In this document: positions 55,450 to 56,556 of the stretch, one piece after another | Numbering within the stretch: position 1 is the first letter of the stretch | Layout: the number at the start of each line of letters is the position of its first letter | Assembly: GCA_020055655.1 (NCBI GenBank) | Contig: JAIPUR010000002.1 | Coordinates: 62,001 to 126,000, forward strand | Source: Methanosarcinaceae archaeon | GTDB taxonomy: Archaea > Halobacteriota > Methanosarcinia > Methanosarcinales > Methanosarcinaceae | DNA: 64,000 nt | Direction: 5' to 3' | Notes under the pieces: model-generated | Seen by the model: only the letters and a program-made list of their open reading frames with translations | What the model was told of the DNA's origin: nothing | Database searches by the model: none | Translations under genes and position numbers: made by a program

Positions 55450-56556
55450 ATGAAAGTTATAATCATAGGTGGCTTCCTCGGAAGCGGAAAAACTACAACC
55501 CTGTTAAGTCTCGGTAAACATCTTGTCGAGAATGGCCGAAAGATTGCTATTATAGTTAATGAGGTCGGAGAAGTAGGTGTAGACGGAGAAACACTTTCTT
55601 TGGGTGGAGTTCCTACTAAAGAACTTACAGGAGGATGCATTTGCTGTACCATGCTTGATAGTATGAAGAAGACCTTGGAAATTATCATGAGCGAGTACGG
55701 TCCGGACACTTTGATAATTGAGCCAACTGGCCTTGCTTTCCCGTTCCAGATCAAGGCAGGCATTGAGGAGATGAATATTGAGGGTGTTAACTTCGCTCCA
55801 GTTGTTACACTTGTGGATGCCAGCGTAATGCATAATGACATGAAAAAAGTTCCCTTGTTTATCGTAAATCAGGTCAAGGAGTCTGAGATTGTTTGCATTA
55901 ACAAGATCGATCTCGTAGATGCAGAAGCAATTGCCTCGGTATCCAATACTATCCTTGATCTTAATCCTGATGCGACAATCGCTGAATTCTCTGCAAAGAA
56001 CTGGGATGCAAAGTTCCAGACTGTTCTGGACCTGCTTGCAGGTGAAAGTAAAGTTATGCACAAGAGCGAGCATCTCAACTCCATTGAGATGTCCGGTGTT
56101 GGCAGTTATGCAAGCGGGTACACGCTAACAGCCGATGGTCTGAATTCTGATAAGGTCACCACAATGCTTGAGCAGCTGCTGGCTGGCGTTAAGGAAAAAT
56201 TAGTAGAGAAGAACCCTGATTTTATCGGTCATGTCAAGATGACATTCATGTTCGATGGAGGACTTGTCAAGGCAAATCTGACCTCAGCTTACGGTGATCC
56301 TTATGTGGAAATAATGGAAGAAGCCGAAGAGGATGAGCAGCACCTTAATTTCTTGTCTGCGATCACACAGGTTTCCAGAGAAGAACTTATCGAAATAGTC
56401 GATGGATCCATCCAGAAGATGCTTACAGACGAAGGCATTGATTTTGGAAAGATTGATATAAAAGGTCATAGTCACGACCACGACCACGACCACGACCACG
56501 ACCACGACCACGACCACGACCACGACCACGACCACAATCATAGTCATAGCCACTAA
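55450..56556 (+). CDS. G3E-family (CobW-like) GTPase, second copy with His-Asp tail
   Basis: A 368-residue paralogue of the preceding gene, with the same Walker A GGFLGSGKTTTL, GGCICC, EPTGLAFP and NKIDLVDAEA motifs and a nearly identical central domain. It differs at its end, where GHSH is followed by ten His-Asp units and NHSHSH, a probable metal-binding or metal-storing tail. ATG 55450 matches the first copy's start; upstream ATGs at 55432 and 55444 are less likely. The tail is encoded by a perfect six-base tandem repeat. Metal delivery with capture at the tail is the obvious hypothesis, as in His-rich HypB and some UreG and CobW proteins. Confidence 0.9.
   Translation: MKVIIIGGFLGSGKTTTLLSLGKHLVENGRKIAIIVNEVGEVGVDGETLSLGGVPTKELTGGCICCTMLDSMKKTLEIIMSEYGPDTLIIEPTGLAFPFQIKAGIEEMNIEGVNFAPVVTLVDASVMHNDMKKVPLFIVNQVKESEIVCINKIDLVDAEAIASVSNTILDLNPDATIAEFSAKNWDAKFQTVLDLLAGESKVMHKSEHLNSIEMSGVGSYASGYTLTADGLNSDKVTTMLEQLLAGVKEKLVEKNPDFIGHVKMTFMFDGGLVKANLTSAYGDPYVEIMEEAEEDEQHLNFLSAITQVSREELIEIVDGSIQKMLTDEGIDFGKIDIKGHSHDHDHDHDHDHDHDHDHDHDHNHSHSH
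56473..56532 (+). repeat. (CACGAC)10 microsatellite encoding a His-Asp tail
   Basis: Ten perfect tandem copies of CACGAC in frame with the second G3E GTPase. All His codons are CAC and all Asp codons GAC within the run, while the flanking His codons are CAT, indicating expansion by slippage. Confidence 0.95.

Follow-up and report, generated by a model that had tools for sequence, protein, structure and literature searches.

His-rich stretches are already known in G3E GTPases of the COG0523 family (CobW/ZNG1/YjiA). In the sections available of the survey by Haas et al. 2009 (PMC2770081), a His-rich region is reported in about 40% of 887 COG0523 proteins, COG0523 genes are counted in methanogens too, and His stretches are regarded as a metallochaperone marker. 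Another source, in its available part, covers cobalamin-synthesis proteins: their 82 low-complexity regions rich in His average 36 residues in length, of which 53% are His and 23% are Asp (PMC6821194). The locus described here, in an archaeon of the Methanosarcinaceae, adds one more instance of a COG0523 His tail, at the end of the second of two tandem GTPase genes (copy 1 and copy 2). It was studied in a window of 64,000 nucleotides, by which we mean the whole stretch of DNA that was analysed; the window sits in contig C22 (180,133 nt) of a 2.48-Mb genome in 48 contigs, one of 27 genomes of its genus. Copy 2 has in common with its COG0523 kin the G3E GTPase domain, the GCxCC motif and a His-rich stretch near the C-terminus. 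It differs from them in that its stretch lies at the very C-terminal end, that there is no match to the CobW_C domain and that the stretch is encoded by a pure hexamer array. Indeed, among the matches listed, the His-Asp run is 100-167 residues from the end in 17 of 18 COG0523 proteins, and 29 residues from it in the 18th (L128). A modestly interesting detail is that the history of the tail's birth is readable: next to a sister copy without a tail, one can still see the seed, the hexamer expansion, the new stop and the relic behind it.

HypB and UreG proteins with His stretches, which serve nickel storage and chaperoning, offer a second comparison. They are likewise G3E GTPases, in which several metal ions are bound by a His-rich extension that is disordered, and HypB of Bradyrhizobium binds 18 Ni in each dimer, according to a citation in the sections available of PMC2770081. 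The HypB stretch is N-terminal whereas the copy 2 tail is C-terminal, and HypB and UreG are tied to hydrogenase or urease.

In bacteria, coding simple-sequence repeats drive phase variation. These repeats are, like the array of copy 2, pure short tandem arrays within a gene, but a six-base unit is unable to switch the gene off. In archaea, Borg elements have recently formed in-frame DNA repeats that add disordered protein segments, according to the available part of PMC9879509. The same part describes these repeats, also in archaeal genes, as extrachromosomal and built of units rich in Pro, Thr, Glu and Lys, whereas copy 2 has a single chromosomal His-Asp array. A literature search on in-frame variation of His hexamers found no title on the subject among those listed, a search for Methanolobus together with CobW found none, and hexamer terms returned nothing of use from the available part of PMC4692102. 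Hpn-like of two Helicobacter strains was considered as a precedent for variation in His number and rejected, since the two differ mainly in glutamine number and have the His motif in common, as given in the available part of PMC8704837.

The second GTPase copy and its C-terminal tail

Copy 2 is encoded on the plus strand at 55450-56556 and has 368 amino acids if the Met that the alignment shows as conserved is taken as its start; the mechanical ORF opens at 55432, 18 nt ahead of this Met. The protein matched the Pfam cobW family PF02492 (CobW/HypB/UreG nucleotide-binding domain) with an E-value of 1.3e-40 and 139.4 bits, for a cut-off of 20.7. Its P-loop (GGFLGSGKTT), NKID and GCICC (GCxCC) motifs are present and invariant in an alignment of 11 rows from the genus. 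The CobW_C domain (PF07683), typical of the bacterial COG0523 form, gave no match at E <= 1e-3 in either copy. With phmmer, the nearest solved structure was YjiA (1nij/4ixm, E 7.5e-14). Both copies were modelled with AlphaFold2, with a mean pLDDT of 64 and 65 and with confidence limited to the GTPase half. Foldseek placed YjiA at the top for the model of copy 2 as well (4ixn and 4ixm, E about 2e-10); the whole-chain alignment to YjiA had an rmsd of 13.6 and a TM of 0.40, in a model confident in its GTPase half only.

The His-rich tail of copy 2, HSH(DH)10NHSHSH, covers 56467-56553 (+) and is 29 residues long. With 15 His, beside 10 Asp, it is a His-rich stretch of the HxHxHxH type. It was modelled with low confidence and without regular structure, which fits disorder but is no proof of it. 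Matches of copy 2 to ZrgA and to a nickel/cobalt-efflux family reach or fall in the His tail; they were set aside and attributed to composition rather than kinship.

A perfect in-frame CACGAC array

The initial annotation had described ten perfect CACGAC units at 56473-56532, and this was confirmed by the sequence and by TRF, which reported a tandem array at 56473-56535 with a period of 6, 10.5 copies and 100% match. The array lies on the plus strand and encodes (His-Asp)10 in frame within the ORF that ends at 56556; an extra CAC at 56533-56535 makes up the last half unit. The annotation's further point, that the frame is preserved at any copy number, follows from the six-base unit.

When a 21-nt piece of the array was searched with up to 3 mismatches, 9 matches were detected in the window, all inside the array or at its edge, and zero in 100 dinucleotide shuffles of the window. 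In the whole of contig C22, the array topped the list of perfect tandem runs of 1-12 nt units with 63 nt, the runner-up among the 12 runs listed being 14 nt long. We also looked at codon usage in the 49 ORFs of the window, where His is encoded by CAC in 111 of 342 cases and Asp by GAC in 305 of 1192. Under this usage, the probability that ten units are all CACGAC is 1.6e-11, and that ten units are of any one identical hexamer 1.0e-3. The shuffles, the contig-wide run list and the codon usage concur that the array is beyond chance. A protein-level demand for His-Asp would yield mixed codons, as found in two orthologs described below, so the uniform DNA word points to recent expansion by slippage. 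On the minus strand, five terminator-like sites across the array were rejected, since they arise from G-T pairing within the repeat, and an ORF at 56423-56887 over the array was set aside as the mirror frame of the repeat.

The tandem pair and the birth of the tail

Copy 1 lies at 54101-55150 (+), has 349 amino acids and ends in a short tail, KAHSHEPEVISL. The cores of the two copies align without gaps and are identical at 275 of 334 residues. With a dN of 0.096, a dS of 0.71 and a dN/dS of 0.135, both copies are held by purifying selection, and the duplication is not recent. On the core tree described below, the end branch of copy 2 is longer than that of copy 1 (0.20 vs 0.087), and at 153 sites invariant in the genus copy 2 has 9 private departures and copy 1 has 4. 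Copy 2 evolves faster by these measures, which could also reflect relaxed constraint and counts against the reading preferred below.

Copy 1 had been noted as lacking the tail altogether. It has indeed no His run, but the HSH seed is present, and is followed by seven residues, a stop and a hairpin. The tail of copy 2 exceeds the HSH of copy 1 by 78 nt, that is exactly 13 hexamers. Directly after it, a stop replaces the first Glu codon that follows HSH in copy 1; it opens a stretch at 56554-56577 (+) in which six further in-frame codons, a relic of the old C-terminal peptide, lead to a second stop at 56575-56577. Then comes a 3' hairpin at 56578-56597 (+), identical at 17 of 20 nt to the hairpin of copy 1 at 55151-55170, whereas the next best placement in the tested stretch matches 8 positions. 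In each copy, 24 nt separate the last His codon from the hairpin. Since just half of these positions are identical between the copies (12/24), it is the hairpin and the two stops that fix the register of the relic. Read in this register, the alignment of the copies shows that the HSH seed expanded in place and that a later stop codon cut off the ancestral C-terminal peptide. Growth of the slippage type, as proposed in the initial annotation, is supported by the purity of the DNA against codon usage, by the exact excess of 13 hexamers and by the lack of any similar repeat in the rest of the contig.

Long His tails are scarce among orthologs of the genus

At E <= 1e-120, 24 of the 185 genomes from the order have members of the ortholog group, and all 24 belong to the source genus; only the source genome has two group copies. 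A core tree was built from 25 group members and one outgroup after the tails had been cut off. A gene that a run of N interrupts was excluded (G009, whose C-terminal end is untailed), as were a genome whose only match is more distant (G014) and a further three distant proteins (G015p, G020p and G001p); one genome had no group match (G010). Long His tails are present in 3 of the 25 group members on the tree, a minority, so that the tail is not essential to the group. What differs across the species is whether a His tail is present, absent or rebuilt. The long-tailed rows require at least two changes on this tree, and they form a single clade in 0 of 200 bootstrap trees. The other two tailed orthologs, L008 (G025) and L016 (G021), are neighbours on the tree and have tails with mixed codons. 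Such independent long His tails argue for use over accident.

An old C-terminal end, Pro followed by hydrophobic residues, was recognised in all but one of the 22 untailed rows and in none of the 3 tailed ones, by a pattern composed after the tails had been inspected. The exception among the untailed rows is G011, in which Gln replaces Pro in the C-terminal peptide. Judging from these C-terminal sequences, the His tail and the Pro/hydrophobic peptide look mutually exclusive across the orthologs. When the core of copy 2 was used in a protein scan of the genome contig collection, no relative came up.

Among the 185 genomes of the order, two have an exact (CACGAC)4, the source genome and G012. 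In the latter it is found at L204 6046-6498 (-), in a small protein that ends HDNHDHHDHDHDHDHHHHHHHHHH and, judged by eye, looks like a NifX/Mrp-type protein. A wider pattern for His-Asp/Asn runs is found in 3 of 185 genomes, the source genome, G127 and G139. G127 has a His-Asp/Asn run with mixed codons in a small protein. G139 (L229) provides the order with a second array of pure hexamers, a CATAAT repeat that gives a His-Asn run in the Ser/Thr/Asn-rich part of a large membrane-like protein, a setting unrelated to metals.

His-Asp runs elsewhere and a likely function of the tail

With a DNA pattern of (CAYGAY)4 or longer, at least 119 loci were found in species across bacteria and archaea, and 118 proteins were scanned. 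Among the matches listed, the families were cobW (21), Cation_efflux (7), ZnuA (6), UreE (5) and NicO (4), with nitrile hydratase, TonB receptors and others also present; part of these loci are probably not genes. His-Asp runs elsewhere are thus largely in metal-handling families, among the matches listed. In the same matches, 3 of 119 loci have a perfect run of at least 10 hexamers, and 9 of the 24 arrays with at least 6 units are pure, which indicates that pure arrays recur as a means of encoding His-Asp runs.

The composition of the copy 2 tail and its family fit metal binding. Given the His stretches of COG0523 proteins and the His/Asp composition, the tail is most likely a loose, multi-ion metal-holding segment beside the GTPase's own site. 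Altogether, we consider it likely that the array forms the centre of a metal-binding His/Asp tail, gained by slippage, at the C-terminus of the second of two tandem putative COG0523 metallochaperones. After the duplication, copy 2 expanded at the ancestral HSH seed by 13 hexamers, probably through replication slippage, the ten units of the present array being identical. The stop directly after the tail eliminated the short hydrophobic C-terminal peptide that untailed relatives retain. The tail may loosely bind several divalent ions (Zn, Ni or Co) and either hold them or feed them to the GCICC site of the GTPase, while copy 1 presumably kept the ancestral role.

Other readings of the array

The tail could also be a chance product. 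As a redundant duplicate, copy 2 may have had a dispensable C-terminal end that grew by neutral slippage, with no metal-handling role; this would be in line with the lost ancestral peptide, the faster evolution of copy 2 and a tail modelled with low confidence and no regular structure. We think it unlikely, since the expanded word encodes just the His/Asp make-up that low-complexity regions with metal-binding roles typically have, and the expansion began at the HSH seed of a putative metallochaperone. Moreover, long His tails had a second origin in G025/G021, and the copy 2 core is under purifying selection. A mis-assembly of the copy count, as opposed to the tail, in the 48-contig draft deserves hardly any credence. 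Repeat arrays are error-prone, and a frame-broken ACR3 gene, intact in relatives, is on the same contig; yet 60 nt is less than one ordinary short read, and the frame is intact on both sides of the array, with the relic and the hairpin then in register.

The initial annotation had further suggested that metal storage could vary within a population. Such a contingency mechanism, in which frequent slippage maintains mixed tail lengths, storage varies between cells and metal supply selects the length, is in our opinion quite unlikely. It is favoured by an array that is pure, in frame and 60 nt long, with a unit that holds the frame whatever the number of copies. Against it, two MutS_I-domain proteins are retained in the genome, the array is the sole one of its kind in 180 kb, which speaks against a generally slippage-prone genome, and the other two tailed orthologs, with their mixed codons, have no live array. 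We regard as quite unlikely too a heritable metal dial, in which the duplicate would have exchanged the docking peptide at its ancestral C-terminus for a His-Asp tail prone to slippage; the number of repeat copies would then vary among cells and set the metal withheld from or delivered to clients. For the metal-binding tail that we prefer, the copy number of the array is probably mutable, and if tail length does vary, it would provide a natural series for how many histidines a metallochaperone needs.

Neighbourhood of the tandem pair

Upstream of the pair, a MEDS-PAS-GAF histidine kinase is encoded at 50927-54007 (+) and is the upstream neighbour in at least 13 of 14 loci of the genus. Downstream, a DUF2148 (ferredoxin-domain) gene at 56655-57203 (+) is the neighbour in 14 of 14 loci, separated from the GTPase by one other gene in 3 of them. 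This conserved neighbourhood of 14 loci is a stable setting in which no client protein is indicated. Rfam gave no match between 48000 and 64000.

Further downstream, a CMD/AhpD-like protein at 57360-57707 (+), whose matches to models of the GSU3128 family and of arsenic-linked AhpD are weak, adjoins the broken ACR3 gene. This arsenite transporter gene, at 57780-58966 (+), is broken into two overlapping frames, whereas ACR3 is one intact ORF of 392-429 amino acids in at least 7 of the 14 genus loci; the split is either a genuine frameshift or an error of the draft sequence. Finally, a 27-bp direct repeat, 96% identical, was observed at 57185-57238, where it runs from the last part of the DUF2148 gene into the spacer behind it.
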